From positions 53,286-117,285 of IMG/VR virus record IMGVR_UViG_3300044530_000662: 64,000 nucleotides of DNA, one strand, 5' to 3'. Shown piece by piece: positions 13,842 to 55,130 of this stretch; the first letter of the stretch is position 1, and the number at the start of each line of letters is the position of its first letter. The stretch is from a virus. The notes under the pieces are model-generated. The model was not told where the DNA came from. It was given only the letters and a program-made list of their open reading frames with translations, and did no database searches. The translations under genes and the position numbers were made by a program.

Positions 13842-13847
13842 TATTTT

Positions 13848-14087: not shown

Positions 14088-14104
14088 AATTAGTTGGTTT
14101 TAAA

Positions 14105-14650: not shown

Positions 14651-14659
14651 AGTGATATA

Positions 14660-14699
14660 TTAAAAAAAGGGGAGGAGTATGAAACTCAGCTCCCCTTTT
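14660..14699 (-). terminator. Intrinsic terminator after the 551-aa virion gene
   Basis: On the minus strand AAAAGGGGA and TCCCCTTTT frame an 18-base inner region (with GCTGAGTTTCATACTCC) and run into TTTTTTTA. It isolates the 551-aa gene, as expected for an abundantly expressed virion protein. Confidence 0.75.
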
Positions 14700-14720
14700 C
14701 TAGTTATTAATTAGAGTTAA

Positions 14721-22254: not shown

Positions 22255-22266
22255 TTTATTTTGTTT

Positions 22267-23283: not shown

Positions 23284-23319
23284 TTTGTTGTTGGTTTGTT
23301 TATTGGTTTGTTTTTATTT

Positions 23320-23356
23320 AAAAAAAGCACAGAGCATCATTAGTGACACTCTGTGC
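23320..23356 (-). terminator. Intrinsic terminator after the MCP gene
   Basis: On the minus strand GCACAGAG pairs with CTCTGTGC around a 14-base loop, followed by TTTTTTTAAAT. It may be partial, letting some transcripts into the 338-aa gene. Confidence 0.8.
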
Positions 23357-23371
23357 AATTATTTTGTTTAA

Positions 23372-24991: not shown

Positions 24992-25018
24992 TTTTATTAT
25001 TTATTTAATTGTTACTAA

Positions 25019-26275
25019 TTAAAATCTCTTGAACATATTTGCTCTTGGGATTGTTCTTTGTTGAGGTTTTGCGGTCCCTCTTTTTTGTTCTTCAAAAGCA
25101 TCTGTTGATGATGAAGAAGCAAGTTTCCTAGACTCCTCTGTCTTTAATTGTCTTACTGTTTTTTCTACAGCTTGTTTACTACCTTGCTCTCTGATCTTTG
25201 CTTCAAATCCATCTGGATCTGCAAGTAACCAAAGTGCTTTAGCAATTAATCCATGATTAGGTTCTACAAACTGATACTTTTCAAGTAAGTGTCCTAACAT
25301 GTTTGTTTGTTTACCAGAAATTGATGGGTAGTTAGGTTGAACTAATCCTGAGTATAACATACTCTGAATTTTTTTGTCAAGCTTAACACCACTTAGTTCA
25401 CCAGTTACAAGAGTATTATATACACTATCAGTATATGCTTTAGCTTGTTTTTGTTGTTGATCTTTTCTATGCTCTTGTTCTGCTAATTGACTTGCAACAA
25501 TTTCTTCTTGCATTCTGTCTAACTTAGGTTTAAACTGATTAGCTTTTTGTTCTAGTTTACCAACATCAGACCAATCTTCAATTTCAGATTCAATCTCTTC
25601 AGGTGTACCAAAGTTTGTTGCATAAAGATATTGTCTTGCAATTTCAGCTTGATCATTTTCATCTGATGGATTTAAAGATCTCATTTCTTCTACATGAGCA
25701 AGAGTTCTGAATAAGCTTTTAAGGTCTTGACCACCATCAGCTACATACTTTGCTGCTATTTGAAGTTCTTCTGGAAGAGAGTTAAAGAATTCTTTTGGTG
25801 TATCTTCTCTAACTTTATTTTCTCTTTCTTGGAAGTTTGCTTCAAATAATTCTCTGAAGTCTTTAGTAGTATATTCATCTAATGATTTATCATCATCAAA
25901 TGGAACAAGTGTACCTTCTTCAATCATTTTACTAGCTAATTCAGCAAGACCTGATTTATCAACCTTTGGTCTTCCTTTATTACCAGCATCTTCTTCTTGA
26001 AAAATTAAGTCTTCTAGCTCAGCAATTGTTTCATCAACTTCTGTTTTCTTTTCTTTGGCTTCTTGCTTTTCAGCATAAGTAGCCGTAGAGTTGTCAAGGA
26101 ACGTGGTATCAACATTCTCCTTTGAGAATACTGATTTAGGTTTTTCAGACTTATCATCTGGTAACATGATGTTTGCTGCACCAGGGTTACCAAAGATCTC
26201 ATCAATATTTACATCTACTTGTTCTACCGTTGTAGAATTTAGGACCTCAGCAAGGTCTTTTGTTTCTTCACTCAT
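25019..26275 (-). CDS. Scaffold-like acidic coiled-coil protein (418 aa)
   Basis: An acidic helical protein with an Asp/Glu-rich first third (VDETIAELEDLIFQEEDAG), coiled-coil segments around residues 230-275 (LASQLAEQEHRK type), and a basic C-terminus (KPQQRTIPRANMFKRF). Scaffolding proteins typically have a basic C-terminus that docks to the coat, and the gene lies exactly between portal and MCP. A late-type promoter motif precedes it. The role is inferred. Confidence 0.65.
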   Translation of the reverse strand: MSEETKDLAEVLNSTTVEQVDVNIDEIFGNPGAANIMLPDDKSEKPKSVFSKENVDTTFLDNSTATYAEKQEAKEKKTEVDETIAELEDLIFQEEDAGNKGRPKVDKSGLAELASKMIEEGTLVPFDDDKSLDEYTTKDFRELFEANFQERENKVREDTPKEFFNSLPEELQIAAKYVADGGQDLKSLFRTLAHVEEMRSLNPSDENDQAEIARQYLYATNFGTPEEIESEIEDWSDVGKLEQKANQFKPKLDRMQEEIVASQLAEQEHRKDQQQKQAKAYTDSVYNTLVTGELSGVKLDKKIQSMLYSGLVQPNYPSISGKQTNMLGHLLEKYQFVEPNHGLIAKALWLLADPDGFEAKIREQGSKQAVEKTVRQLKTEESRKLASSSSTDAFEEQKRGTAKPQQRTIPRANMFKRF

Positions 26276-26300
26276 TGTTGTTGGTTTTTGTTTATACTTT

Positions 26301-26314
26301 AATATACAAAATAA
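26301..26314 (-). promoter_or_regulatory. Late-type promoter motif before scaffold and MCP
   Basis: On the minus strand it reads TTATTTTGTATATT, 26 bases upstream of the ATG at 26275. It is a close variant of the late motif and has the TATATT core placed as at the other sites. Confidence 0.45.
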
Positions 26315-26366
26315 ACTTGATAAATTTAAAAGAGATTATATAATTTTTTGCACTATATAGCTAAGT

Positions 26367-29117
26367 CTACTTTTTCTTAGCATCTTTATTTGGTTTATCA
26401 AACTTATTTTTGTTTTCTCTAGCAATTTGTAATTGTTTATCAGCTATTTCTTTTTGAGTTTGAAGCTTCTGTCTGTCAAGATCAATCTTTTGACTTTCTC
26501 TGTAGTTCTCATTACTTTGCTTTTCTCTTTGTAATTGCATTTGAGACTGATACTGTTCAGTAGATCTTATTTCTTTCATAGCATCTTCATAGTCAGATAT
26601 CTCATTTTTGTTTACATCCTGCATAGCACCGTATCCTGCTGATCTTATCTCAGCTACAGTAATATCTTTCTGTATAAGTTTATCTTGTTTTTCAGCTTCT
26701 GCTTGAATCTCCATTTGTTTTTGTTTCTCTTGAGAAGCAATTTGTTCTTGTTGCATTTGTTGTGCTGACTGTTGTTCTTGTTGTTTCATCTGAGTTTGTT
26801 TTTCTTCAGATGATTTAAGAGCTGTATTTACTTCAGCAATTGAATCTGCTTGTACAATTTTACCAAGATCATAGATTGATGCTCCACTTGTATTATTAGT
26901 CAAGGCCATAGATTTTAACTGTTCTAATACTGCCCTATGATTTGCTGTTGTTGTACAGAAAATATTAAGGTCTCTCAGAAGTAAATCTGTTCCATTTACT
27001 TGAAAATTAACTTTATCATCAGCACCCGTGATATAACTAAGTCTAGCAGATGGTTTTGTAGAATGATAATATTGAGCTAAGTCAGTTCTCATCTGATGAA
27101 CTCTTGGCATTAAGTAGTCACAATGTTGAATAAAGAATACTTCTGTTTGAGCATAAGATGATGCAGTAGCTTGTTCCACACCTGTTGCAGTCATTTGTGA
27201 TAACTGTGCACCCATACGTTGTGGATTTATTCCTATCACTTCATATGCTTGTTGTTTAAAATGTTCAGCAAGTTTAATCCTTGACATTAATCTTTCTGTC
27301 TGAGATAGATCTAGTTTCTGGAAATGTTGGAAGTTAAGAGCATTCTCTGTATTTGTAATAGAGGTATCAAGAGGAAGCATCTGGAAGTTCTTCATAGCTA
27401 CATAAGCTTTAGCTAAATTTCCTTTCCCCCAGTCTTCTCCTAATGAATGTCTTGGTAAAGCATTTTGATCAAGTAAGATAATAGTACCTAACTCATCTAC
27501 TAAGATGTCTGCAATCTGATTATTTACAATATTGTATCCAATCTGATATGGCTTCATTAAGTCAAGTAAAGCAGTTGACTTGGTGTTTCTATCTGAGAAT
27601 ACTGCTCCCTCCACAGGCAACTTACAACCATATAGAGTATTATCTCCTTTAAATTGAAACTTAAGTGGTCCTATATGGTTTCTGTCTACCCCTAAATATA
27701 TTGGTGAAAATCCTCCTGGATTATTCATACCCCAGAATGATGGAATGTTTGGACCTATTTTAATACCACCCCAAACTTCATTGATCCATATCCAGTCAAT
27801 ATGTTCACCAAATACAAGATTGTCTTTTGTTTTGTTTTTAAAAAGTCTTGTATCATAAATAGGCTTGTCTTCAACTTTGTAATCTTCAGTAATTACTTCA
27901 TTAATAATTTCACCATTATCTGATATCTTGGTTAAGTGCCCTACTTTACGTTGAGACTTCCAGTATCCTGTAGTTACTCTTAATAAGTATGCTGTACCTT
28001 GGTCAAAGTAATCTTCTCCCTCAGACATAATTGAAGCAATAATATCACCACCATCTAATACAGAACCTGCTCTCATAGTAGTATACTGTCTGTATGCTAA
28101 TGAAGGCATGTTAACATTCCACTCATGAGATTTAGTACCGTCATAATAAGTACCATCATTTTGATATCCTCCAGTGATGTAACCAGCAGAACGGATAGGA
28201 TATACATTTTCTAGAGCTTCTAACTGATCTTGGGTCATCATATAACCAAATCTATCAATTACATCTGATACAGTCATCATATCAATTTTACCTACCCAGT
28301 TAGCTTGAGAGATATATCTAGCATCTGGAGATTTATGATAGAATGTAATTGGGGGATTCCATAGCTCAATTTCATAGTCATCTTCCATCATGCGGAAATG
28401 CCAGAACTCTCTATCTGTAATAAGCATGTCTCTGAAACCTCTTTCTTCAAGCTCATCCATTTTAAATCTTTCTACATCTACATGATGCTGATGAACTGCC
28501 CATTGTTCTGCCATTGATCTGTAATCTTTTTTAAAGAAAGATTCTATCTCAGGTAAGCTTTTTATTTTATCAGGAGATAATTCTTCTTGTGCTTCTGGAG
28601 AGTTTGGATCAAGACCTTGTTCTAATAATGCTGCAGTAATTTTAATCTGTGCATTTGCCATTAATACTTCTTCTACAGCAGTTCTTTTTTGTTCTAGTAA
28701 TTCATTATATGAATACTCATCAACAGCTCTATATGTAAGTTTAGTTGATCTCTTAGCAAATTCAGCTACTAGAACATTAATAACATTTGGAATGATTGGG
28801 TAAAACTTAAGCTCTAATGCTGAAGCATCTTCTCTAGTTAATACTTCTACTATGTCTCTATAGTCATTATCTTCTTCTACAATATAATCAGACTTATCTA
28901 TTACACCTTTTGCTAACTTATAGTTTTTCATAAGTCTGCGAGCATTTCTGCGGATCTGTTTTAATCCATTCCATTCTAACCAGTCTAAGTTCCAAGCTGC
29001 CCACTCATCATCTTTATCTTTTTTATTTAAAAATTGAAGCGGTTGAGTAATACTACCCATTCTATTATGAGATGTCTTAGCACCTTTTTTGGCTTGTAAC
29101 GCGTTGATAATTTGCAT
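26367..29117 (-). CDS. Portal protein (916 aa)
   Basis: The gene lies between TerL and scaffold and has the expected size. The N-terminal half holds the type of core found in crAss-like portals (RRNARRLMKNYKLAKGVID, then LKFYPIIPNVINVLVAEFA). A stem/clip-like region (PSFWGMNNPGGFSPIYLG) and a helical region IKLAEHFKQQAYEVIGINPQ follow. The last 170 residues are a Gln/Lys/Glu-rich coiled coil ending KFDKPNKDAKKK, longer than in many portals, perhaps reaching the DNA or the neck. The portal forms the dodecameric DNA gate of the procapsid. Confidence 0.8.
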   Translation of the reverse strand: MQIINALQAKKGAKTSHNRMGSITQPLQFLNKKDKDDEWAAWNLDWLEWNGLKQIRRNARRLMKNYKLAKGVIDKSDYIVEEDNDYRDIVEVLTREDASALELKFYPIIPNVINVLVAEFAKRSTKLTYRAVDEYSYNELLEQKRTAVEEVLMANAQIKITAALLEQGLDPNSPEAQEELSPDKIKSLPEIESFFKKDYRSMAEQWAVHQHHVDVERFKMDELEERGFRDMLITDREFWHFRMMEDDYEIELWNPPITFYHKSPDARYISQANWVGKIDMMTVSDVIDRFGYMMTQDQLEALENVYPIRSAGYITGGYQNDGTYYDGTKSHEWNVNMPSLAYRQYTTMRAGSVLDGGDIIASIMSEGEDYFDQGTAYLLRVTTGYWKSQRKVGHLTKISDNGEIINEVITEDYKVEDKPIYDTRLFKNKTKDNLVFGEHIDWIWINEVWGGIKIGPNIPSFWGMNNPGGFSPIYLGVDRNHIGPLKFQFKGDNTLYGCKLPVEGAVFSDRNTKSTALLDLMKPYQIGYNIVNNQIADILVDELGTIILLDQNALPRHSLGEDWGKGNLAKAYVAMKNFQMLPLDTSITNTENALNFQHFQKLDLSQTERLMSRIKLAEHFKQQAYEVIGINPQRMGAQLSQMTATGVEQATASSYAQTEVFFIQHCDYLMPRVHQMRTDLAQYYHSTKPSARLSYITGADDKVNFQVNGTDLLLRDLNIFCTTTANHRAVLEQLKSMALTNNTSGASIYDLGKIVQADSIAEVNTALKSSEEKQTQMKQQEQQSAQQMQQEQIASQEKQKQMEIQAEAEKQDKLIQKDITVAEIRSAGYGAMQDVNKNEISDYEDAMKEIRSTEQYQSQMQLQREKQSNENYRESQKIDLDRQKLQTQKEIADKQLQIARENKNKFDKPNKDAKKK

Positions 29118-29122
29118 ATCTG

Positions 29123-31327
29123 TTATTTAAGGTTTTTAAATGGGGATTTTTTAAACCCCGTTCCATTAGAATAATAGGACTTACCCATATGTCTAAAGGG
29201 ACTATTATTTAATTTAAACAAATTTTCTGACTTTTGCAAGTTTTTAGCTGCATCATCCATGATAACTCTTTTACTATATCCCCTATTTGCTTGCTGTATT
29301 CTCATAAAAGCTACAAGTGCACAGAAAGCTACCATCCTATCCACGTTGAGCCCATCAGCATAAGCTTGCATCTCTTTAAGCAACATTGGATCAGGTATTC
29401 TTTCTATACCGTATTTAGTTCTTACAATAGTACCATCTGTTTTAGTTTCAATATCTAACTCTTCTTTAGTATATTCTATAGCATAACTAAGAAGGTGATT
29501 TTTAAATAGTACTCCTGTATTTTTCCAACCATACTCCTGGAATACATTAGCATTAGCACCTAAGTCTTTTAAGAACATAATCTGACTTTTAGGTACTAGA
29601 TATTTTTGTTTCTTTCTGGATATCATGTATTGAATAAATAGAGAGATGTTATTCTCTATAACAGCCCATGCATTATACCATTCTATAATTAACTCTAGTC
29701 TTTGGTGTGTTTTGTTAAGGTCATCAAACCTTCCACACCAAGCTGCTACAATTTTATCTGGTTCTATATAAGTCTCTGTTTCTGTACCTGTAACCTTGGT
29801 AACTTCTATTGGAGCTTTCATTATATAGATAGAACATAGTGATTCTGAGGTAGTTGTCTTACCCTCCGACACCGGGTCAATAGAAGCATAATAATGTTTA
29901 GCAAACTCTGGATTAGGTATAGGTCTTTCCCATACTACAAGTACTCCTGTTTTATCTTCTGTATTTTTAGTAACTGGAAATTCTCTAATAGGCATTTTAT
30001 TAGAAATTTTAACTGCAGGTTTTCCATTCTCATCTGCATAGATATCTAAAAATTCATATGCATATTCTTTTTCTTCTATTCTTCTTTGTTGTGCAGCAAT
30101 TAAGTGTGTTGGAAATTTAGATACAGTTCTGTTTGCAAAAGCTTCTTCAATATTTCTAGGATGCTGTGAAATCCTTAACTGATAAGTTTCTGGATCCAAT
30201 TCTTTTTTCCAAACTTCAAACTGTCTATCTAATGCTTCTAATGCTTGTTCTACAAGTGAATTACCATAAGCATCAATGTGTGGTGGCATAGACCATTGTT
30301 CAGGTATAAATAAACCTGATAAACCTATAGTACCTTTATTATCTATTAGATCTGTTTCTACAGCATATACATCACTATCTTTTGGTTTAAGAATCATTTT
30401 TCTCAAAGGTTCACATTGAGATAAGTCACCCACAGATCCTGCAGCAATAAACATCCCTGTAGTAATTAAACCAGATCTCATGGCTGGACGCATGTACTCA
30501 TATGTAGTATCCATCTTAGGAGCAATCCCAGCCTCCTCATGAAAGAAGTATTTAACTGGACCCCCTACACCATTTGTTGGATCTTTTTCAAAAGACATAC
30601 CTTGCATAGTACCTTTTAGACCCACTTCTGTTTTTCTGTCTCCTTTTCTTACTTCAATCTTCTGCTGCCACATTAAGACCTTGTCTGGAGACATTGGACG
30701 GTACCATGCAGTATGTTCATTAAGGAAGGCAGCATATTCCGATAAAAACTTCCAAGAACCTTTCTCATTAATATAATCTTTAAGACTGGCTCCCATTTTT
30801 AATGTTACCCCTGACTCAAACCATAACTGATTAAGTAACTTAGATATATGAAAATAAGAAGATGCTATCTGACGTTTCTTTAAGATAGCAACATGTTTGT
30901 AATTTAATTCTGCAAGTAACTCATACAGAGCCATGTGATACTGAGCATCACGGATTTTAGCAAAGTCAAACTTCTGTTGTTCTTTATCAAAGATTGGTAA
31001 GAAGTTTAACCACATGTAATAGTCTCTAGTTATAAACCATTTCTTATTACCATTTATATAAAAGACTCCTTTTCTACATTTGTTTTTTTGATCATCCCAG
31101 TAATTAATAAAATCTTTAGATTTAAAGGGAGCTAAGCAATATACATTGTTAGCCCTAAATAAAGTAGATTGTTCATTAAATAAATAACTGGTTTCATCAA
31201 AGTTATATTTACCTGGTTCAGCAAATATCTCTTCTATAGATTTAGAAAATTCTTCTCTAGACTCAAATGATATTGTAGTCCAAGTACCATTATCCCAACA
31301 GGGTATATCTTGATAGATTTCACTCAT
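29123..31327 (-). CDS. Terminase large subunit, TerL (734 aa)
   Basis: The ATPase domain covers about residues 90-400. A Walker A region lies at about 145-160 (HVAILKKRQIASSYFH, a degenerate loop seen in crAss-like TerLs), and the Walker B/catalytic pair is VKYFFHEE (258-265). The segment HPRNIEEAFANR (389-400) is typical of this TerL group. The RNase-H-like nuclease begins with YASIDP (Asp484) and continues to about residue 690. TerL pumps DNA through the portal encoded immediately downstream. The length fits crAss-like terminases. Confidence 0.88.
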   Translation of the reverse strand: MSEIYQDIPCWDNGTWTTISFESREEFSKSIEEIFAEPGKYNFDETSYLFNEQSTLFRANNVYCLAPFKSKDFINYWDDQKNKCRKGVFYINGNKKWFITRDYYMWLNFLPIFDKEQQKFDFAKIRDAQYHMALYELLAELNYKHVAILKKRQIASSYFHISKLLNQLWFESGVTLKMGASLKDYINEKGSWKFLSEYAAFLNEHTAWYRPMSPDKVLMWQQKIEVRKGDRKTEVGLKGTMQGMSFEKDPTNGVGGPVKYFFHEEAGIAPKMDTTYEYMRPAMRSGLITTGMFIAAGSVGDLSQCEPLRKMILKPKDSDVYAVETDLIDNKGTIGLSGLFIPEQWSMPPHIDAYGNSLVEQALEALDRQFEVWKKELDPETYQLRISQHPRNIEEAFANRTVSKFPTHLIAAQQRRIEEKEYAYEFLDIYADENGKPAVKISNKMPIREFPVTKNTEDKTGVLVVWERPIPNPEFAKHYYASIDPVSEGKTTTSESLCSIYIMKAPIEVTKVTGTETETYIEPDKIVAAWCGRFDDLNKTHQRLELIIEWYNAWAVIENNISLFIQYMISRKKQKYLVPKSQIMFLKDLGANANVFQEYGWKNTGVLFKNHLLSYAIEYTKEELDIETKTDGTIVRTKYGIERIPDPMLLKEMQAYADGLNVDRMVAFCALVAFMRIQQANRGYSKRVIMDDAAKNLQKSENLFKLNNSPFRHMGKSYYSNGTGFKKSPFKNLK

Positions 31328-31329
31328 AA

Positions 31330-31845
31330 TTAAGAATCATAAGATAACCCAATTCCTCCTCTAACTTTACTAGACTGTTCATCTTGTAGGTCTTTGTACA
31401 CACCCTTAAATGATTGTCTAATGCCATCAAAGTCTTTTGCTAATGCTCTTATCTGAGCTATGTTACCATCTTTACCATCTGTGATTTGTGCAGTAGACAA
31501 GTAATTAGATATCCTATCAAGTGCTTTTTGCATACCCCCATATGCTCTGGATGTTGGAGTTTCATATAATTTTTCACAGAACTTAAGAGCATTAAATATA
31601 TCCTCATCTTCTGTTGAGAATTCTCCATCTATTTCTCTTATAATCAATGATTCTTTTTCTATCTGTGGTGTATGAAAGAAAGGATTCAAATCTGGATCAG
31701 GACATGTCATATAAAACAAGTACTGGTATATTTTTAGATAATCATCTGGATAATTATCCATGATATCTTTTAGAGATTTAAGTGTATAGCAATGTTCAGT
31801 TGGAACTACTGTTCTGTTCTGTACATCAAATAGTTTAATCAGCAT
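31330..31845 (-). CDS. TerL-linked protein, small-terminase position (171 aa)
   Basis: A soluble helical protein, acidic in the middle (EIDGEFSTEDEDIFNALKF), with a Gly-rich C-terminus (VRGGIGLSYDS). It immediately precedes TerL in the operon, where small terminase subunits are often found, but no helix-turn-helix is clear by eye. The role in packaging is context only. Confidence 0.5.
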   Translation of the reverse strand: MLIKLFDVQNRTVVPTEHCYTLKSLKDIMDNYPDDYLKIYQYLFYMTCPDPDLNPFFHTPQIEKESLIIREIDGEFSTEDEDIFNALKFCEKLYETPTSRAYGGMQKALDRISNYLSTAQITDGKDGNIAQIRALAKDFDGIRQSFKGVYKDLQDEQSSKVRGGIGLSYDS

Positions 31846-31847
31846 CT

Positions 31848-32681
31848 TTATTTCTTTTTAATATTTTGTTTGTTCTCATGAAGGTAATGAATAAGTGCAT
31901 GCACTTCTTCTACTAGATAAGGTATTGCCATAGGTATTACCTCTTTTACTATAGGATCTCCATTATCATCTAGTTTTGCAATTGGATAACCCCACTGATC
32001 TTCTCTATCTACTTCAAATGTTATATGATGAATATAAATGCTTCCTGGTTTTAATTTAGGATTATGCTTTAATATAATATACATATAAATGCTAAGTTGT
32101 AAAGCATAATGATAAAAGTTACAGTCATCTAAATTATTGACAGGGTGAGCCATCTTTTCAGATATTCCTTCCCAGTTAACATAAGATTCTTTCTTTATCT
32201 CCTTGTTAGTTTTGTAGTCAATAATATTTACTTTACCATTCACTACTTCTACTAAATCTGATTGGCCACAAAGACCAACTGATCTTAAATAGACCATATG
32301 TTCTGGATACACACCTGGTTCTAATTTTTGTAATGGAGCCACCTTAACTCCTTCTTTAACTTCTGATGGTTTAAATACAGGTACTGTTACACCTTCTCTT
32401 TCCATAGAAGCTAGTGCACATAAGTCATCTTCTCTTTGGTTGTGATACCATGAACCAAGAGTAGTAGACCTAGTAGATTCATTATTCCAAATATCTTGAA
32501 TAGTCTGAGGATCTACTCCGGCCCATTTAGATTTTTTATTTTTGCTTACTTTCTGAGCTACAGCTTTGGCATCAAAAGATTTTTTAAAATGGGATACAAG
32601 TGTAGTTACACTTATCCATTCAATACCTGTATCTTCTATACTTCTATAGCTGTGATCAGATGCGTTAAATATTATGCTCAT
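31848..32681 (-). CDS. PD-(D/E)XK nuclease, Cas4/RecB-like (277 aa)
   Basis: The motifs of the PD-(D/E)XK fold are visible: GSWYHNQRED (His80), GVYPEHMVY (Glu127), GQSDLVEV (Asp142) and IIDYKTNK (Asp155, Lys157). The spacing fits RecB/Cas4-like exonuclease domains, and LQLSIYMYIILK forms the usual helix that follows. It acts on DNA, plausibly in end processing or recombination before packaging, as it lies next to TerL. No Cys cluster of Cas4 is present, so the exonuclease label is generic. Confidence 0.8.
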   Translation of the reverse strand: MSIIFNASDHSYRSIEDTGIEWISVTTLVSHFKKSFDAKAVAQKVSKNKKSKWAGVDPQTIQDIWNNESTRSTTLGSWYHNQREDDLCALASMEREGVTVPVFKPSEVKEGVKVAPLQKLEPGVYPEHMVYLRSVGLCGQSDLVEVVNGKVNIIDYKTNKEIKKESYVNWEGISEKMAHPVNNLDDCNFYHYALQLSIYMYIILKHNPKLKPGSIYIHHITFEVDREDQWGYPIAKLDDNGDPIVKEVIPMAIPYLVEEVHALIHYLHENKQNIKKK

Positions 32682-32683
32682 AA

Positions 32684-33004
32684 TTATGCATTTTCAATTA
32701 TTGATTCTGCTAATGTTCTTGATGATTCATCTTCAGCCATTAACATCTTACGGATATTAGTTACTTCTTCTTGTGTAAACTTACCCTCCATAGAAAGAAT
32801 CTTTAGTCTTAAGAACTTATTATCTGTTTCTAACTTCTTTACTCTTTCTAGTAGATCTTGTATAGGATTCCCCCATGGATCATTATTAATAGCACTAAAT
32901 AAACCATTAGCATTACCAGGAATGGTATTAATTACTGTAGTAGGATCATTAACATATACACCTTGTATACTTTGTGTTTGTAATCTATCTGTAAACTTTG
33001 ACAT
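32684..33004 (-). CDS. Small coiled-coil protein (106 aa)
   Basis: Residues 48-75 form a short coiled coil (LLERVKKLETDNKFLRLKIL), followed by a helical acidic end. The N-terminus has a VYVNDPTTVINTIPGN segment. It is cotranscribed with nuclease and zinc-binding genes. No function is recognised. Confidence 0.55.
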   Translation of the reverse strand: MSKFTDRLQTQSIQGVYVNDPTTVINTIPGNANGLFSAINNDPWGNPIQDLLERVKKLETDNKFLRLKILSMEGKFTQEEVTNIRKMLMAEDESSRTLAESIIENA

Positions 33005-33008
33005 AATA

Positions 33009-33308
33009 TTAATCTTTAAGGTTATCTAAATCATCTTCTTCATCTTCAGTACAAACAGCTTTCCATTTACCTAGTGGGCAATCTGCAGACAGAGCTCTAG
33101 TTTTAAATGTTAATGAGCAACCACACTCATTACAACAGGGAGCTGTACCTGGTACTGCACAATCATCACCTTTTGAAGTACAGTCATCACAAACTTCTTT
33201 TCTAAATTTTGCTACATCTTCAATAAATTCATCTCTGATAATAGAATTTTTAATTCCTTCAACAATCCCTTTTCTATTCTCCCAGATTGTTTTTAATACT
33301 GCTTTCAT
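33009..33308 (-). CDS. Cys-cluster zinc-binding protein (99 aa)
   Basis: The Cys pattern CDDCTSKGDDC, then APCCNECGCSL and ADCPLGKW (residues about 35-85) is a recurrent zinc-binding arrangement in small phage proteins. The N-terminus is basic and helical; the C-terminus is acidic (DEEDDLDNLKD). It overlaps the HU-like gene by 35 bases. It may be a nucleic-acid binder; the function is unknown. Confidence 0.6.
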   Translation of the reverse strand: MKAVLKTIWENRKGIVEGIKNSIIRDEFIEDVAKFRKEVCDDCTSKGDDCAVPGTAPCCNECGCSLTFKTRALSADCPLGKWKAVCTEDEEDDLDNLKD

Positions 33309-33663
33309 TTTTGGTTTTTTTAAAATTATCTTTTCTGGTTTCCTCTACTAGCATTTTCTTTTCTAATTCTAGTAATTGTTCAAGTTTAACTTCTAAACCT
33401 TTTTTATTAAAATAAGCTCCAAAAGTTGATGTGTCATGTTCTTGTAATTTTTTTGTTATCTTAGGTATATCATTTTTAACTAGCATAGGTTTAGCAACAA
33501 AATGACCAAGTCCTTCTAAGTTTACTCTAGGATACTCTAAGTTAGATAGCACACTTCTCAGTTCTTTATAACAAAATTCAATATAAGTTTCTAGCATAGT
33601 TTCATCAAGATTGTTATCTTCTGCTAACTGCTTATATATGCTATTTGCTTTCTTGGGTATCAT
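33274..33663 (-). CDS. HU/IHF-like DNA-binding protein (129 aa)
   Basis: The N-terminal half (IYKQLAEDNNLDETMLETYI, then YKELRSVLSNLEYPRVNLEG, LGHFVAKP) matches the HU/IHF helix pair plus the N-L-G-x-F strand. The basic helical C-terminal half replaces the long DNA-binding arm region, so this is a divergent member, as reported for crAss-like phages. It overlaps both neighbours, which indicates coupled translation. Confidence 0.6.
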   Translation of the reverse strand: MIPKKANSIYKQLAEDNNLDETMLETYIEFCYKELRSVLSNLEYPRVNLEGLGHFVAKPMLVKNDIPKITKKLQEHDTSTFGAYFNKKGLEVKLEQLLELEKKMLVEETRKDNFKKTKNESSIKNNLGE

Positions 33664-34021
33664 TTCCTAAAAATTTATAATCTAGTAAAAGTGTTCCCTT
33701 TGTTTGTATTTTAATATCTGGATTAATCATAATCAATTTCTTATTGTTAGGATCTTTAATAACCAGATTATTCTTTTCTGCTTTATTAATACAATTCCTT
33801 ACAGTTTGAGGTGATTTAAATATCCAGTCTTCATCTGCAGAGGCATCATAACAAAAATGGGTAAGTTCTATAGGTTCATTAAAACTAAGTAAAGTTAAAC
33901 AGTTTAAATCAGACTCACTCACTGTTATACGGCTAATATAACAATGAGTAAGAATCTGAAACTTAACAACATCCCATTTTGGCATCTTGACACGCTTCTG
34001 TACCTGATTTACAAGTGCCAT
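33641..34021 (-). CDS. Winged-helix-like protein (126 aa)
   Basis: A helical N-terminal half (VVKFQILTHCYISRITVSES) with a possible helix-turn-helix (SPQTVRNCINKAEKNNLVIK, residues about 70-90), then a beta wing (NKKLIMINPDI). This order resembles winged-helix regulators. It lies in the packaging and DNA-binding unit next to HU-like genes. A DNA-binding role is inferred. Confidence 0.5.
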   Translation of the reverse strand: MALVNQVQKRVKMPKWDVVKFQILTHCYISRITVSESDLNCLTLLSFNEPIELTHFCYDASADEDWIFKSPQTVRNCINKAEKNNLVIKDPNNKKLIMINPDIKIQTKGTLLLDYKFLGNDTQESK

Positions 34022-34023
34022 GA

Positions 34024-34329
34024 TTAATTCTTTTTAAGCTTTCTTTTTGCTGTTTCCGGATTAATTCTACCATCTAACTCTAAACCTTCTTCTTCTAGAT
34101 CTTCATCTAAAGGTGTAGGATTATTTATTTGATACATAGTTACAGCATACTGATGTTCATACTGTAGTCTCTTAAGTTTATTTTCTGAGATCTCAGCTAA
34201 TAACTTTTCATATTCAGCTTGAGCTTTTAAATAAGGTAAAGCTTCTTCAAAGAATTGTTTCATCTCTTCTTTTCTAGCTGTTAACTGTTCTGGAGATAAA
34301 TTCTCCATTTGTTCTTGTTGGTTTTCCAT
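34024..34329 (-). CDS. Coiled-coil protein at the head of the packaging unit (101 aa)
   Basis: Nearly all helical and acidic, with heptad-like Leu/Tyr spacing (residues 5-75, QAEYEKLLAEISENKLKRLQ) and a Lys-rich C-terminus. It has a promoter and a preceding terminator, so it is the first gene of the packaging transcript. The function is unknown. Confidence 0.55.
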   Translation of the reverse strand: MENQQEQMENLSPEQLTARKEEMKQFFEEALPYLKAQAEYEKLLAEISENKLKRLQYEHQYAVTMYQINNPTPLDEDLEEEGLELDGRINPETAKRKLKKN

Positions 34330-34352
34330 TACTTTTTAATTTTAAGTTTAGA

Positions 34353-34360
34353 CAAATATA
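34353..34360 (-). promoter_or_regulatory. Bacteroidota-type -7 box before the packaging operon
   Basis: The minus strand reads CTTGTATATTTGTC. TATATTTG fits TAnnTTTG exactly and lies 24 bases upstream of the ATG at 34329, directly after a terminator. It also carries the TATATT core of the late motif. Confidence 0.6.
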
Positions 34361-34390
34361 CAAGAAAAGTTTAAATTAAAATAGTTTAAA

Positions 34391-34422
34391 TAAAAAAATC
34401 CAGGCATAGTATATACCTGGAT
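34391..34422 (-). terminator. Intrinsic terminator after the 102-aa gene
   Basis: ATCCAGG pairs with CCTGGAT around an 11-base loop, with a TTTTTTTA tail on the minus strand. Confidence 0.85.
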
Positions 34423-34441
34423 CTCTATAATTTGTATGTAA

Positions 34442-34750
34442 TTATTTTTTCTTAGTCATTGTTTTGGCTTTAACAATACCACCTTTTTTATTTTTATCTA
34501 GCATCTTTTTAACACCTAGTCCTGCGGCACCTGCGGCACCTATCCCTAGAATAGCACCTAATGCACCACCGCCTCCTCCACCACTTCTAGAAGATGATCT
34601 AAACTTAGTTGTTTTACCACAACCACTTTTTCTTCTTCTTCTTTTTTTACCATCAGCTGCTACATATTCTTCCATACAACTATCTTCTGTACTTCCGCCC
34701 TCAGCATAACTCTTCATAGATCTAATGATCTGGTTTTTACTATCTATCAT
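34442..34750 (-). CDS. Small GG-motif protein with Gly-rich hydrophobic segment (102 aa)
   Basis: It holds the GG motif twice (SYAEGGSTED and KKGGIVKAKTMTKKK at the C-terminus), linking it to the basic virion proteins at 17.6-22.3 kb. Between lie an Arg/Lys patch (KKRRRRKSGCGK) and GGGGGALGAILGIGAAGAAG, a possible membrane-interacting helix near residues 58-80. As the last gene after the lysis cassette it could be a lysis accessory or a small virion protein. Confidence 0.5.
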   Translation of the reverse strand: MIDSKNQIIRSMKSYAEGGSTEDSCMEEYVAADGKKRRRRKSGCGKTTKFRSSSRSGGGGGGALGAILGIGAAGAAGLGVKKMLDKNKKGGIVKAKTMTKKK

Positions 34751-34752
34751 GA

Positions 34753-34914
34753 TTATCTATTTTTAAGTGTAAAGTTTAATACAGTAATCATATAAAATGA
34801 TCTTGGTACATCTATTTCTAGAGTAAATACATCAATAGAAGATACTCTTAAACTTAATCTTAATTGTTTTAAGTTTTTCTTCCAGTTTTTCCAATTATTT
34901 CTAGACTTTATCAT
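34753..34914 (-). CDS. Small basic protein after the endolysin (53 aa)
   Basis: ATG at 34914 overlaps the endolysin stop by four bases (ATGA). The product starts MIKSRNNWKNWKKNLKQLRL and ends with a hydrophobic beta segment (RSFYMITVLNFTLKNR). The amphipathic N-terminal helix could bind membrane. The overlap argues for translation, but there is no family match. Confidence 0.5.
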   Translation of the reverse strand: MIKSRNNWKNWKKNLKQLRLSLRVSSIDVFTLEIDVPRSFYMITVLNFTLKNR

Positions 34915-35429
34915 GCTTCATTTGTACTTATGGTTCCTTTTGCTTCAAGATAAACTTTTCTAACACTTGCTGGTTGTGCTACTTTCCAAGCAGTTCTTCT
35001 AGCTTGTGTTAGTCTAGACTTAGCAAGTCTCATCACATTTACCTGGTTAGATTGGTTACCACCAAGAACATGATAGTGAGTTTTATCCTCACCTACATAA
35101 AATCCAACATGGCCACCGCCATTTCTTTTGAATGTAAGTATATCACCTAACATAGGTTCAGTTACTTGAGTTCCGTACTTATTCCAGTTAAGAGCCCATA
35201 AAGGTCTTTCAACTACTTGTACTCCTGCCTTGTGTGCACAGTAAGCTACAAATAAACCGCACCAAGGAATTTCATCATTGGTATAAATAGTACTTAGACT
35301 AAGTTCTTTAGCCCAATTGAGTATTACAGGATTATGTGCTTTACCTACTATCTCTTTAGTACCTATCAGCTTTATAGCTTCTACTAATATTTTAGGAGCT
35401 GTTTCTTGAGTTAAATAGCCGTAACTCAT
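34911..35429 (-). CDS. Endolysin, CHAP/NlpC-type (TIGR02594-like) (172 aa)
   Basis: The catalytic set of a papain-like peptidoglycan hydrolase is visible: PWCGLFVAYC (Cys57), GGGHVGFYVGED (His107) and VLGGNQSN (Asn125). The order and the GDILTF strand before the His fit TIGR02594/CHAP proteins. It cuts peptide bonds in peptidoglycan at the end of infection. There is no signal peptide, so it needs the holin candidate encoded just upstream. Confidence 0.85.
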   Translation of the reverse strand: MSYGYLTQETAPKILVEAIKLIGTKEIVGKAHNPVILNWAKELSLSTIYTNDEIPWCGLFVAYCAHKAGVQVVERPLWALNWNKYGTQVTEPMLGDILTFKRNGGGHVGFYVGEDKTHYHVLGGNQSNQVNVMRLAKSRLTQARRTAWKVAQPASVRKVYLEAKGTISTNEA

Positions 35430-42700: not shown

Positions 42701-42901
42701 TTATTTATCAGCTACTCTACCAAATGTAATATTATTCTTTACTCTGATATCCTTGTGTGTAAACTGCCACATCTCTCCAGTGTCATTTAATATCACAGTA
42801 TATATAGTATCTGTCTCATGACCATAGTCTGTAACTAACCAAATAATCCCGGATCCTTTAGGTGTATTAACTTCTAGTCTATTATGTGGTTCATATATCA
42901 T
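42701..42901 (-). CDS. Small hypothetical protein (66 aa)
   Basis: I start at the ATG at 42901 (MIYEPHNRLEVNTPKG), which overlaps the end of the upstream 224-aa gene. A TTG nine bases upstream is less likely. The product is beta-rich (GIIWLVTDYGHETDTIYTVI), SH3-like in appearance. No family is recognised. Confidence 0.5.
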   Translation of the reverse strand: MIYEPHNRLEVNTPKGSGIIWLVTDYGHETDTIYTVILNDTGEMWQFTHKDIRVKNNITFGRVADK

Positions 42902-43565
42902 AGTTCTCAATTTTTATATCTTCATCTCTTGCAACTAAACTCTTATATAAATCTATATCAGTAGACCATTCTTTACCTGTCCAAAACTCAAACCCGGAAT
43001 AGTTACTCTTATACTCACAACACTTCTCATACCCACCAAGTAAATACACATACTCACATTCTAGAACTTTAGCAGTATTGCACTCTACCATCTGTGCTAT
43101 GGTACCCAGAGAAAGTTTTGGATCTTTATAATCCCATATAAACTGATATGCCACAAACTGATTCTCAAACTGTTTATAAAAACTAACTCCAATCAATTCA
43201 CCATTCCAATATTCTATAACATTACAATCAGCAAAATTATCTAAATCAATATCTCTTTTAAACCCATGATACTTACAGTACTCTTCATGCAATACTTCAT
43301 ACTTCTCTTTATTACTGATTACATTACCAGCTTGTACATATATCTTTTGACTTAACTTCTTAGTAGTCTTACTAGGTTTATACTCAGCTAGATTTATCCG
43401 GGTACTCCTTTCATTATACCATCTATCCTTCCAAGGAATCCATCCTTCCTTTAATGCATCTATAGAAGATTCATCAGAGTCAAGAATACCATAAGCACAA
43501 TTAACAATTATCTCCAAGTCACTTACTTTGCCAAAGCCTTGGATATGATCAAAGAATACTTTCAT
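42891..43565 (-). CDS. Arginyl/leucyl-tRNA-protein transferase-like (ATE1-type GNAT) protein (224 aa)
   Basis: Residues about 112-200 follow the C-terminal GNAT core of ATE1: GELIGVSFYKQFENQFVAYQ, then LSLGTIAQMVECNTAKVLEC, EYVYLLGGY and EYKSNYSGFEFWTGKEW, corresponding to SLG-x-x-x-L, Y-L-G-Y-x-I and M-x-Y-K-x-x-F-x-P-x-E in ATE1. ATE1-like enzymes add an amino acid from tRNA to protein N-termini, marking them for degradation. The N-terminal Cys cluster of eukaryotic ATE1 is absent. It is the first gene of the leftward block, with a promoter-like box right before its ATG. Confidence 0.5.
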   Translation of the reverse strand: MKVFFDHIQGFGKVSDLEIIVNCAYGILDSDESSIDALKEGWIPWKDRWYNERSTRINLAEYKPSKTTKKLSQKIYVQAGNVISNKEKYEVLHEEYCKYHGFKRDIDLDNFADCNVIEYWNGELIGVSFYKQFENQFVAYQFIWDYKDPKLSLGTIAQMVECNTAKVLECEYVYLLGGYEKCCEYKSNYSGFEFWTGKEWSTDIDLYKSLVARDEDIKIENYDI

Positions 43566-43569: not shown

Positions 43570-43577
43570 TAAAGATA
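43570..43577 (-). promoter_or_regulatory. Promoter-like box at the start of the leftward block
   Basis: The minus strand reads TTTTTTTATATCTTTACAATATG; TATCTTTA differs from TAnnTTTG by one base. It lies only five bases before the ATG at 43565, so a transcript would have almost no leader. It is fused to the terminator at 43586-43602. Confidence 0.45.
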
Positions 43578-43580
43578 TAA

Positions 43581-43602
43581 AAAAACCCACTCTGTAAGTG
43601 GG
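43581..43602 (-). terminator. Intrinsic terminator of the third small RNA unit
   Basis: On the minus strand CCCAC pairs with GTGGG around TTACAGA, followed by TTTTTTT that runs straight into the next promoter box. Confidence 0.8.
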
Positions 43603-43672
43603 TGCTCAACTTTAGGTAATGAGATTGCAAGGACTTGCCTCTGACCATATCACTCACAATTTTTGCAAGGAT
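43585..43672 (-). ncRNA. Small RNA segment C, or read-through part of unit B
   Basis: About 90 gene-free bases lie between the inner terminator at 43673-43715 and the terminator at 43581-43602. There is no clear promoter of its own. It contains complementary pieces (CTTGCAA and TTGCAAG around GTCC). It may be the 3' part of unit B when the inner terminator is passed. Confidence 0.35.
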
Positions 43673-43715
43673 AAAAAACCCATGCAGTTTATATTCGTCA
43701 ATATTCTTACATGGG
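43673..43715 (-). terminator. Inner terminator of small RNA unit B
   Basis: CCCATG pairs with CATGGG around a loop of about 25 bases, followed by TTTTTTATCC on the minus strand. Confidence 0.65.
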
Positions 43716-43803
43716 GGTTTGTCATAAGTTATACTTTTCAGCTTTCCTTTACACAGAAAAAGACCAGAGATGGAGCTGTGGCAGAACAGTCTCAGGTACT
43801 GTA
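43676..43803 (-). ncRNA. Small RNA candidate B (promoter-terminator flanked)
   Basis: It begins a few bases after the TATCTTTG box at 43807-43814 and ends at the terminator near 43676, giving about 130 nt without a sizeable leftward reading frame. The 5' end can fold (GTACTACAGTAC; CTGAGACTGTTCTG). There is no known family. It may be a regulatory RNA, or a decoy made late from the control region. Confidence 0.5.
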
Positions 43804-43806
43804 GTA

Positions 43807-43814
43807 CAAAGATA
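43807..43814 (-). promoter_or_regulatory. Exact Bacteroidota -7 box for small RNA B
   Basis: TATCTTTG on the minus strand, in TTTTTTTATATCTTTGTA. The T-run is the tail of the terminator of unit A, so terminator and promoter share bases. Confidence 0.6.
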
Positions 43815-43815
43815 T

Positions 43816-43860
43816 AAAAAAACCCAGACAGTAATTCTTGATCAATGACACTTATCTGGG
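43816..43860 (-). terminator. Intrinsic terminator of small RNA unit A
   Basis: CCCAGA pairs with TCTGGG around 26 bases that hold the palindrome TTGATCAA, followed by TTTTTTT on the minus strand. Confidence 0.7.
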
Positions 43861-43985
43861 TGTGTTACCAGTTATACACTTATAGATATCATGCTTTCCC
43901 GGTAACAAGAAGTCCAAGAAAAGTGAGCAGAGCTTACGGTATGCTTCCCTGGATCTGATCCTATGTTTACTCAACACAGGTGCAC
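43821..43985 (-). ncRNA. Small RNA candidate A (promoter-terminator flanked)
   Basis: About 165 nt between the TATCTTTG box at 43990 and the terminator at 43816. Stems seen on the minus strand are CCTGTGTT/AACATAGG around GAGT (eight pairs with one GU) and TGTTACC/GGTAACA. No useful leftward reading frame exists. It is a stable, structured transcript of unknown role. Confidence 0.55.
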
Positions 43986-43989
43986 CTTA

Positions 43990-43997
43990 CAAAGATA
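43990..43997 (-). promoter_or_regulatory. Exact Bacteroidota -7 box for small RNA A
   Basis: TATCTTTG on the minus strand within AAAATTTTATATCTTTGTAA, the first of three tandem copies spaced about 183 and 237 bases apart. Confidence 0.6.
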
Positions 43998-43999
43998 TA

Positions 44000-44300
44000 A
44001 AATTTTATAGAATTTTTAAAAGTTGTATATAAGACATGGTAGTGGGTCCTTATAAAACTTACCCCGGGGGTGCAAAACAAAGTGGTATACCCCCTACAAA
44101 TTCTACAGAGGAAGCCATACTCTAGAAAATATTTGTAAAACATTTATTTCTAGAAAAGTATTTCTATTCTACTACAAGAAGTAAGTAGTACATACTATAT
44201 TATATCTTATGTACTAATTATTAATACAAGAAGAAAGAGAGAAGGTGCTCTTGCTCACACACAAGCCAACACAAGAGAACACAGAAGACAAGCCATATAT
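44000..44300. other. Gene-free divergent control region, possible origin
   Basis: The strand of all genes switches here. The stretch holds a rare GC-rich palindrome (ACCCCGGGGGT near 44062), an inverted repeat TCTAGAAA/TTTCTAGA separated by 17 bases (near 44131-44160) and AGTACATA/TATGTACT (near 44188-44215). No gene fits. The features are compatible with a replication origin or a regulatory hub, but no iterated initiator sites are proven. Confidence 0.4.
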
Positions 44301-44301
44301 A

Positions 44302-44318
44302 CAACTTCTATTGTAATA
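44302..44318 (+). promoter_or_regulatory. Early promoter motif copy 1
   Basis: CAACTTCTATTGTAATA, 30 bases before the ATG of the first early gene. It is one of ten copies of GCAACTTYTATTGTA in 3.1 kb. Confidence 0.6.
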
Positions 44319-44331
44319 TAAATTATATACT

Positions 44332-44532
44332 ATGAAAATATATTATGCAGAGATTACTGACTTTGCAGGCAAAGCAGTAATGAATTTAGAATACACAGCA
44401 TCAGCTAAACATAGTGCTAAGCTTGCTGAAATATTCATAAAGAATTGCCCACCTGCTCAAGGATTCAACATAAGGCTTGCCTTTATTGAAGCTAAGCATA
44501 TTGCAAGTATGATGAATAACTATAGAGGATAA
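44332..44532 (+). CDS. Early small protein 1 (66 aa)
   Basis: A short soluble protein starting MKIYYAEITDFAGKAVMNLE with an amphipathic helix in the middle (SAKHSAKLAEIFIKN). It is a single-gene unit: promoter motif, gene, and a terminator whose loop contains the stop codon. Such early phage proteins often inhibit host functions; no family match. Confidence 0.65.
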   Translation: MKIYYAEITDFAGKAVMNLEYTASAKHSAKLAEIFIKNCPPAQGFNIRLAFIEAKHIASMMNNYRG

Positions 44533-44553: not shown

Positions 44554-44568
44554 GCAACTTCTATTGTA
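44554..44568 (+). promoter_or_regulatory. Early promoter motif copy 2
   Basis: GCAACTTCTATTGTA, 32 bases before the ATG at 44586, directly after terminator 1. Confidence 0.65.
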
Positions 44569-44585
44569 TTATAAAACTATATGCT

Positions 44586-44753
44586 ATGAAATACAAGATT
44601 CAATTCCACATAGTTTCTGTTGATGAGATTAAATCTATACAACAGAAACTAAATACTTGGCTTACTACAGGCCATATGAAAAAGTTTGAAACATTTGTTC
44701 TACCTGATGGAAGACTTCTGTTTCAATGCTTAGTGTTAAAATCAGAGGAGTAA
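44586..44753 (+). CDS. Early small protein 2 (55 aa)
   Basis: ATG at 44586 opens a 55-codon frame (MKYKIQFHIVSVDEIKSIQQ, ending LLFQCLVLKSEE). It has the same promoter and spacing as its neighbours, and its TAA lies in the terminator loop, which makes the short gene credible. It has a beta-helix-beta look. The function is unknown. Confidence 0.65.
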   Translation: MKYKIQFHIVSVDEIKSIQQKLNTWLTTGHMKKFETFVLPDGRLLFQCLVLKSEE

Positions 44754-44768: not shown

Positions 44769-44776
44769 CTGCATAA

Positions 44777-44790
44777 CAACTTTTATTATA
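44777..44790 (+). promoter_or_regulatory. Early promoter motif copy 3
   Basis: CAACTTTTATTATA, 29 bases before the ATG at 44806. Confidence 0.55.
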
Positions 44791-44805
44791 TAAGAAATAT
44801 ATACT

Positions 44806-44988
44806 ATGACTGCAAACCAACTATTTGATTTAGCTGAAACGCTAGATAAAGCAATTGCTACCTTAGAAACAGAAGGTAAGACATTTAAAGAAAGATGTGA
44901 ACTAGCTGATTTAAAAGCATATAGAGCCTATGTTCAAGAAGGTATTGAAGCTGTTATATCAGCAATGGAGAGTAATACAGGGGAATAA
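44806..44988 (+). CDS. Early small helical protein 3 (60 aa)
   Basis: An acidic, all-helical protein (NQLFDLAETLDKAIATLETE, then YRAYVQEGIEAVISAMESN). It forms a monocistronic unit with its own promoter motif and terminator. It has no hydrophobic segment and is possibly a protein-protein inhibitor. Confidence 0.65.
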   Translation: MTANQLFDLAETLDKAIATLETEGKTFKERCELADLKAYRAYVQEGIEAVISAMESNTGE

Positions 44989-51210: not shown

Positions 51211-51295
51211 AGCAAGGTGGTGTAATTGGTAACACGGTCCTAATTTAATATGGTGAATACCAGGTCTAGTATCTGTTCAAATCAGATCCTTGCTA
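51211..51295 (+). tRNA. tRNA-like gene with abnormal anticodon arm
   Basis: Acceptor AGCAAGG/CCTTGCT (seven pairs), D-arm GTGT-AATTGGTA-ACAC with GG in the loop, T-arm ATCTG-TTCAAAT-CAGAT and discriminator A are all canonical; CCA is not encoded. The anticodon arm is not: GTCCT/AGGTC has one T-T mismatch and closes a 20-base loop instead of seven, with TGGTGAATACCA able to form its own hairpin. The amino acid cannot be assigned. Confidence 0.55.
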
Positions 51296-51411
51296 CAGTT
51301 GCAACAGTGCAACTTTGCCTTACCCTGACAGGAACAAAAACCTAGAGGCTTAAAAGTGGGTGACAGCTGGAAAGACAGCATTTTTTATTTATAAACTGTA
51401 ATATCAAAGCA
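51296..51411 (+). other. Gene-free tail after the tRNA-like gene
   Basis: A hairpin GTTGCA/TGCAAC follows the tRNA-like element at once (51299-51314). GCTGGAAAGACAGC with TTTTTT near 51367-51386 can act as a terminator. No gene is seen. Confidence 0.45.
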
Positions 51412-54224: not shown

Positions 54225-55130
54225 ATGACAGAAGAAGAACAATTAAAAATAATTCAGGCTAAGCTAAACATTACTGACAAAAGAACAGTAAAGCAAATCT
54301 TAGCACATAAAGAGCTTTGTGAAGATATTATAAACAGAGATGTGATATCTGAACAAGAGCTGGTGGAGGAATATCAAATTCCTCAGAGCCATTTAAAAAG
54401 TTTAAAACAACAGAATAAACTATCTTTCTTTGCAAGTACAGGTGAAGTAAATAAAATTAGCCGTGGATCTAAAGTATATTATTTTGTAGATGAAGTAAAA
54501 GACTTGTTTGGATATAACATCCGTTACAATAAATCTCATTCTTTTAAGAAAAGTATATTTAACAAGCTAGTGGTTGATATGTCAACAGAACTATGTACAA
54601 GTACAGAAGCTGGAGCATTAAAAATGTTTCTTATAAATAATTTATCAGTTGAAGAAATTGGTGAACATTACATTATAACCAATGAAAGAACAAATCAATT
54701 AATATCTAAGGCTTATAGAAGAATTGTTAGTAAAGTGTTTCAGCTTAATAAAATGTTTAAAAGCTATAGAACAAATCTTGAGTATCAAACTGAAAATGAG
54801 TTATTAAAAAAACAAAATACAGAATTATACAATAAGTTTTTAAGAGTTAAAGAAAATGATGTTCTTAAAGATCTTAAGTCTAATACAAATGTTGAACACT
54901 TTGTTAAACATGGTTATGATGTTAAAGACTTAGTTAAAGGCTTACATGAATTTAAAGAATATTTGTCTGTAAGAGCACTTACATGTTTAAAAAATGCATA
55001 TATTGAAAATCTTGATGAGCTACTATCTTATCCTAAACGTGATCTTATAAGATTAAGAAATATGGGTGAGAAGACTGTAAGTGAGATTTGTGATTGGTTA
55101 GAAGATAAGTACAATTGGGAATTAAAATAA
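54225..55130 (+). CDS. Sigma-region-4-like plus RNAP alpha-CTD-like transcription regulator (301 aa)
   Basis: Three DNA-binding-type parts are visible. Residues 41-95 resemble an excisionase/MerR helix pair (ISEQELVEEYQIPQSHLKSL). Residues 139-170 match a sigma-70 region 4 helix-turn-helix (LSVEEIGEHYIITNERTNQL, then ISKAYRRI). Residues 246-298 closely follow the RNA polymerase alpha C-terminal domain (YLSVRALTCLKNAYIENLDE, then LRNMGEKTVSEICDWL). A helical linker (180-240) joins them. It could recruit host or phage polymerase to middle or late promoters. It lies between HNH and helicase genes. Confidence 0.65.
   Translation: MTEEEQLKIIQAKLNITDKRTVKQILAHKELCEDIINRDVISEQELVEEYQIPQSHLKSLKQQNKLSFFASTGEVNKISRGSKVYYFVDEVKDLFGYNIRYNKSHSFKKSIFNKLVVDMSTELCTSTEAGALKMFLINNLSVEEIGEHYIITNERTNQLISKAYRRIVSKVFQLNKMFKSYRTNLEYQTENELLKKQNTELYNKFLRVKENDVLKDLKSNTNVEHFVKHGYDVKDLVKGLHEFKEYLSVRALTCLKNAYIENLDELLSYPKRDLIRLRNMGEKTVSEICDWLEDKYNWELK

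Follow-up and report, generated by a model that had tools for sequence, protein, structure and literature searches.

Organization of the small-RNA locus

The window analyzed here, a stretch of 64,000 nucleotides, runs from base 53286 to base 117285 of a viral record 117,285 bp long. The divergence point of the genome lies near 44 kb, and a row of small RNA units begins there on the minus strand, as an earlier note on this DNA had proposed. The GC skew switches sign at ~44000 of the window, i.e., at the same point. The leftward boxes at 43990, 43807, and 43570 and all of the terminators named in that note are indeed present on the minus strand, and the RNA ends given below were deduced from the positions of boxes and terminators.

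Unit 1 is predicted from a covariance model, from covariation, and from minimum free energy (MFE) to be an RNA of about 170 nt (43985-43816, minus strand). On that strand it would fold into helix P1 (43980-43960), helices P2/P3 (43957-43911), helix P4 (43906-43864), and the P5 terminator (43860-43823), which is followed by a T-run (43822-43816). The apex of P3, GCATACCGTAAGCTCTGC (43927-43944, minus strand), is one base off both the family consensus and the apex found upstream of an AbiD gene of Prevotella nigrescens, the single change being A to C (17/18 identical). Unit 1 reached 171.7 bits in cmsearch with a model that had this sequence in its seed, and its MFE z score is -2.4. Unit 2 (about 129 nt; 43802-43674, minus strand) was found by covariance model R1 with 34.4 bits and an E value of 5.6e-6 and, since it was absent from the seed, we regard it as a diverged paralogue of unit 1. 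It retains features of P4 and P5 (GGAAAGC..GTATAAC and the terminator, whose hairpin has a z score of -4.1) and has lost the P3 apex. Unit 3 is a conserved RNA element of ~90 nt (43579-43667, minus strand) with its own terminator hairpin (43602-43586). Its sequence is unrelated to units 1 and 2. Columns of its alignment with homologues from other contigs are on average 93% identical, and these homologues occur at times alone and at times behind unit 1 or unit 2.

The earlier note had envisaged two or three RNAs of about 90-165 nt. Unit 3 has no good box of its own, the only candidate being the degenerate TATCCTTG after the unit 2 terminator (43673-43666, minus strand), which is not kept in relatives. 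As that note had claimed, no useful leftward reading frame was found: none with an ATG exceeds 24 codons through the units. An antisense ORF spans 43619-43804, and its frame is not kept in relatives. A search of the phage's own genome for antisense targets of the loops returned nothing except the units themselves.

Promoter boxes and terminators

The box consensus and its position were taken from PMC9723704 and PMC7366714; in flavobacteria, the sigma-A box TAnnTTTG spans positions -12 to -5 relative to the start of transcription (PMC9723704). Unit 1 is preceded by a putative -7 box of this Bacteroidota sigma-A type, TATCTTTG (43997-43990, minus strand), with no terminator before it. The same TATCTTTG precedes unit 2 (43814-43807, minus strand), and the box TATCTTTA follows unit 3 (43577-43570, minus strand), both being fused to the T-run of a terminator. 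No -33 TTTG was seen at the window boxes. Across the window, TANNTTTG is not enriched (84 found versus 105 expected), so that a box alone means little and the comparison had to come from relatives, in which boxes of the TAnnTTTG type are present and conserved, with a box-to-ATG spacing that peaks at 4 nt; the start sites are deduced. The region holds eight terminator-like sites, compared with 0.8 expected from shuffles. From the promoter type and the AbiD loci described below, the putative host is assigned to the Bacteroidota.

Several other features were observed in the window and in related contigs. Rightward of the divergence point, a similar AACTTnTATTnTAtTATAA..ATG stretch precedes each of the small genes (44300-44332, 44555-44590, and 44776-44806, plus strand), perhaps representing a second promoter class. 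ARAGORN calls an unusual tRNA-like gene at 51211-51296 (plus strand), whose anticodon has two letters. The rightward region also contains a gene for a 301-aa protein (54225-55130, plus strand) that has the C-terminal domain of RNA polymerase alpha and weakly matches sigma-70 region 4, possibly a phage sigma-like factor. Contig L036 encodes a protein of 4301 aa (2232-15137, minus strand; 22232-35137 of its record) in which a 2OG-Fe(II) oxygenase domain is embedded; it adjoins a protein of 1603 aa that weakly matches NERD.

Fused junctions and a leaderless gene

At the first fused junction (43822-43807, minus strand), the T-run of the unit 1 terminator runs into the -7 box of unit 2 and TTTTTTTATATCTTTG is exact, as it is nowhere else; at the second (43585-43570, minus strand), which has one mismatch (the final A), the T-run of the unit 3 terminator runs into TATCTTTA, followed by 4 nt and an ATG. 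The claim that each T-run is shared between a terminator and the next box thus holds at these two junctions but not for the box at 43990, which has no fused terminator. The last junction, read previously as the promoter of a further RNA, instead appears to drive a protein gene with the arrangement box-N4-ATG. This gene (42891-43565, minus strand), predicted to be leaderless, encodes a 224-aa protein with the C-terminal domain of arginyl-tRNA-protein transferase (ATE_C, PF04377); a single-sequence AlphaFold model of the protein was uninformative (pLDDT 35).

The exact sequence GGGTTTTTTTATATCTTTG occurs in 33 IMG/VR contigs, whereas two box scrambles of the same composition occur in 1 and 0 contigs, showing that the fused junction is not due to chance. 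Thirteen of the 33 contigs belong to the unit 1 RNA family, and the remaining 20 carry other terminators. In many of the 33, all chosen for the junction and not for the spacing between box and ATG, exactly four bases separate the box from an ATG. The histogram of box-to-ATG distances has a sharp 4-nt peak both for these 33 contigs and for relatives of the 224-aa protein, and a control box gives no peak. Given the position of the box at -12 to -5, a 4-nt spacing would place the start site on the A of the ATG and yield a leaderless mRNA, a type that accounts for only 5.5% of the mRNAs in F. psychrophilum (PMC9723704). The search for further fusions that the earlier note had suggested was fruitful, with T-run-box-N4-ATG arrangements also at 17543 of the record (plus strand) and 39520 of the window (minus strand). 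Fused junctions would separate each RNA from its neighbor without using any extra bases, and at the last of them transcription would start anew precisely on the ATG of the gene that follows. We describe here a compact terminator-promoter-leaderless-gene junction that appears to be used by Bacteroidota phages.

Covariation, the conservation of the junctions in relatives, and the recovery of a paralogue by the covariance model together strongly support reading the locus at the divergence point as tandem small-RNA genes with fused terminators and promoters, from which discrete RNAs are predicted.

A new RNA family that includes unit 1

Among 55 relatives of the 224-aa protein, part have the conserved RNA in front. 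A covariance model built from a curated alignment of 12 sequences matches more than 40 viral loci at 86 to 185 bits. In an alignment of 35 phage loci, 95.4% of the cells are paired, compared with 76.6% in shuffles and 33-46% when the partners are slid by 1-3 columns, and two-sided changes affect 29 of 40 pairs (20.7 in shuffles) and 251 cells (71 in shuffles), figures that favor the structure somewhat since the rows were fitted to the model. The apex stem was also checked independently and without fitting: the complementarity between the flanks of the same apex averages 6.15, against a mean of 4.19 and a maximum of 4.72 for permuted flanks in 300 permutations.

No Rfam family matched the unit 1 RNA in the window or its relatives, and the GOLLD and ROOL models gave no gathering matches to these RNAs of about 45-250 nt. 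The Rfam abiF model (RF03085) did not match units 1 to 3 or the P. nigrescens RNA even at an E value of 10; that this test works is evident from the B. fragilis AbiF locus, in which the abiF RNA lies at the corresponding place and scores 40.1 bits. Unit 1 thus represents an RNA family not described before, which has no entry in Rfam and occurs in many uncultured phages.

The family shows further variation. The P5 loop UUCUCUGAUCAAGAAUUACU (for example in L022) is more conserved than its stem and contains the palindrome UGAUCA, which could form kissing dimers. Many relatives, including L054, L062, L075, L116, L151, and L176, carry an extra 5' module of two hairpins before P1 (CACC..GGAACCC and CCATGGTGATACTGTTGCTATGG) that is absent in the window. 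In L046-L052, L073, L074, and L078, a conserved short terminator hairpin around CTGGAGTTGAAAGCCCGGG precedes the late operon, and the RNA is absent there.

Distribution and genomic setting of the core hairpin

The core of the RNA is a hairpin whose base contains a bulged U and a G-C pair, and its apex GCAUACCGUAAGAUCUGC caps covarying stems. A scan with CATACCGTAAGNTCTGC found at least 120 stretches carrying the motif, and in most of the matches listed, the motif caps a stem whose letters vary freely while pairing is kept. Since the apex loci were mostly gathered by means of the apex, its invariance stems in part from their selection; loci gathered by the protein or the junction alone also keep it, bar a few variants. 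Of 21 large phage records, 20 contain a single copy of the apex and the remaining one has a further match with 3 mismatches, and some relatives of the window phage are without the RNA. No apex was found in isolate phages. Applied to 84,980 genomes of bacteria and archaea, a strict pattern that matches 34 of the viral motif loci gave a single match, on a contig that carries a phage portal gene; this result is a lower bound for bacteria, given that the pattern covers only part of the hairpin variants. Two Leptolyngbya matches were rejected, one in phage Lbo-JY46 as chance (3 mismatches, antisense within a CDS) and one in a plasmid (92%, within a CDS on the other strand). A literature text search for the letters of the apex returned unrelated papers only.

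Among the loci listed, 106 of 117 lie outside ORFs, in intergenic regions, and 38 lie within 600 nt of tRNA genes, every tRNA gene listed nearby being on the same strand. The hairpin occurs in three architectures, namely the full P1-P5 RNA, the bare hairpin, and P1 plus P2/P3 with a P4-like helix. All three are found at one place in tRNA arrays, Met-[RNA]-Ser-Gln, between tRNA-Met and tRNA-Ser (L178, L207, and L093), and are therefore best read as versions of one gene. Phage-borne tmRNA genes were also seen near the RNA gene, at L150:8670-9115 (minus strand), at L160:2704-3074 (plus strand), and in L194.

This distribution bears on two other readings. A DNA-level element at the divergence point, such as an origin of replication or a packaging site, in which the hairpins are incidental features, would fit the change in GC skew sign near 44 kb, but the terminators and promoters are strand specific, G-U pairs are frequent, and the element also occurs at other loci such as tRNA arrays, leaving this reading with a negligible probability. 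We likewise consider it very unlikely that the RNA controls the late operon in cis, as a leader or attenuator with the P5 terminator as the point of regulation. P5 does end just before a gene in many loci, and RCd22 attenuates abiF in cis as well (PMC12373285). However, ten unrelated gene groups or tRNAs lie downstream of the RNA, which is thus not the leader of one gene, 25 of 33 distinct members have a new promoter box after the terminator, often at leaderless spacing, and some members end in tRNA arrays.

Counterparts of the hairpin upstream of AbiD/AbiF toxin genes

A plasmid search revealed one exact intergenic match to the apex, in P. nigrescens, starting 44 nt upstream of a gene annotated as AbiD in PADLOC and as Abi_2 in Pfam. 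IMG/VR contig L177 has the same arrangement of apex and AbiD, the protein being 65% identical to that of P. nigrescens. Both loci match the consensus apex at 18/18 positions, compared with 17/18 for the window, and both were found through the apex itself. In contrast, the Chryseobacterium and Salinimonas AbiD genes were fetched without regard to the RNA. The Chryseobacterium plasmid carries a hairpin with the same base (AACAGTACCCG..GCGGGTC) and an apex 2 letters from those of phage variants L017 and L021, and the apex in Salinimonas, a proteobacterium, is within 3 mismatches of phage variants. One of 30 Pseudomonadota AbiD homologues, L241, carries GCTTCCCGTAAGATCAGC, one letter from phage L017, at position -49 from the gene compared with -44 in P. 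nigrescens; the apex was not found at the other 29. When 3986 pieces of 150 nt were drawn at random from these loci, 10 had 3 or fewer mismatches, some of them probably true sites from the same pool. Only five AbiD/AbiF loci with this type of apex were found, two of them with the exact form.

AbiF is toxic, and the RNA encoded upstream neutralizes it in trans by binding (PMC12373285). The structure 8vz6 is that of PbAbiF with its noncoding RNA (PMC12737573), and its protein is a homologue of the P. nigrescens AbiD (E value of 1e-38).

The phages themselves appear to lack the toxin. No Abi_2 gene was found in 21 RNA-bearing phage records (that of the window and 20 others), which may be incomplete and in which a highly diverged toxin could go unnoticed, and in the search of viral contigs for close AbiD relatives, none matched the peptide patterns. 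Being without an adjacent toxin gene, the phage RNA is not filed here as half of an AbiF pair. That it is nevertheless the antitoxin of a pair whose toxin is encoded at another locus of the phage, with a role in maintenance or superinfection exclusion, has a precedent in the AbiF pairs of prophages (PMC12373285), but the absence of the Abi_2 domain from those 21 records, subject to the same two reservations, leads us to judge it extremely unlikely.

No host counterpart of P1, P4, or P5 of unit 1 was found, the plasmids yielding only short chance matches to P4/P5, so that the RNA would either do more than the host hairpin or carry other targets. These conserved parts beyond the AbiD-type hairpin, together with the many copies in tRNA arrays and the precedent of ROOL and GOLLD, phage RNAs found near tRNA islands (PMC12286853), are what one would expect if the structured RNA had another function in trans, for example related to the ribosome or tRNA in the manner of GOLLD/ROOL, and if the host toxin had evolved to sense, or to be restrained by, a common motif. 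We regard this scenario as unlikely, given that the only nonphage occurrences found lie immediately upstream of AbiD/AbiF (Abi_2) genes, where AbiF antitoxin RNAs are known to reside, and that bare hairpins lacking P4/P5 are retained at the same locus.

A putative antitoxin mimic

A hairpin of the antitoxin type that is solitary and unlinked to a toxin is best explained as an antitoxin mimic. We therefore propose that unit 1 is probably a stand-alone, trans-acting mimic of an AbiD/AbiF-type antitoxin, i.e., a putative RNA anti-abortive-infection factor. During infection, the host polymerase would produce unit 1 from its TAnnTTTG promoter as a short terminated RNA. The P2/P3 hairpin, with its invariant GCAUACCGUAAGAUCUGC apex and bulged-U base, would bind the AbiD/AbiF toxins (Abi_2, HEPN RNases) of Bacteroidota hosts, mimicking the upstream RNA of the toxin itself; the bound toxin would stay inactive, and the infection would not be aborted. 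Transcription during infection, binding to AbiD/AbiF, neutralization, and hence the anti-defense role are steps that we infer from these comparisons. More speculatively, units 2 (the apex-less paralogue) and 3 (a different element) might be antitoxin-like RNAs for other targets.

The frequent location in tRNA arrays would fit a role in counter-defense, since related HEPN nucleases cut tRNA, as cited for Cas13a in PMC12373285. Phages of aquatic Bacteroidota may even possess a dedicated RNA anti-defense gene, in which a stand-alone AbiD/AbiF antitoxin, extra recognition domains, and tandem paralogues add up to a multitarget RNA that neutralizes several toxins and is kept in tRNA arrays as a counter-defense island against tRNA- or RNA-cutting HEPN nucleases; this broader proposal is tentative, and we would sooner expect it to fail than to hold. 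If the antitoxin-mimic reading is right, the RNA would constitute a protein-free, gene-sized counter-defense against Cas13 ancestors, widespread in uncultured phages and unannotated so far because the RNA lies outside Rfam. It would also offer a reason for the presence of non-tRNA genes in phage tRNA arrays, and a direct test would be possible with one RNA and one toxin.

Comparison with known systems

The RNA antitoxins of AbiF/AbiD systems (RF03085 abiF, RCd22 of C. difficile, and AbiFr of PbAbiF, PDB 8vz6) resemble the phage RNA in being short, terminated hairpin RNAs, and the host counterparts of the phage hairpin lie just upstream of an Abi_2 gene. RCd22 acts in trans, and a single-stranded bulge was reported to matter in AbiFr (PMC12737573), while a bulged U is conserved in the phage RNA. 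Unlike these antitoxins, the phage RNA is unmatched by the Rfam abiF model, carries the apex GCAUACCGUAAGAUCUGC, has no toxin gene, and is embedded in a larger RNA with P1, P4, and P5. A phage DNA region protecting from AbiF is named in the title of a reference in PMC12737573. GOLLD and ROOL share with the unit 1 family the property of being structured phage RNAs near tRNA islands, but GOLLD often exceeds 800 nt and ROOL measures ~660 nt, and they form nanocages, whereas the family described here is far shorter and matches neither model. A parallel to the proposed function is pseudo-ToxI of phage PhiTE (PMC3475682), a phage RNA resembling a host RNA antitoxin and used to escape abortive infection; unit 1 is likewise phage-borne, resembles a host antitoxin RNA, and comes with no toxin. 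That case involves ToxIN and rare escape mutants, whereas the RNA described here would address a different toxin family and is a fixed, widespread gene in uncultured phages.
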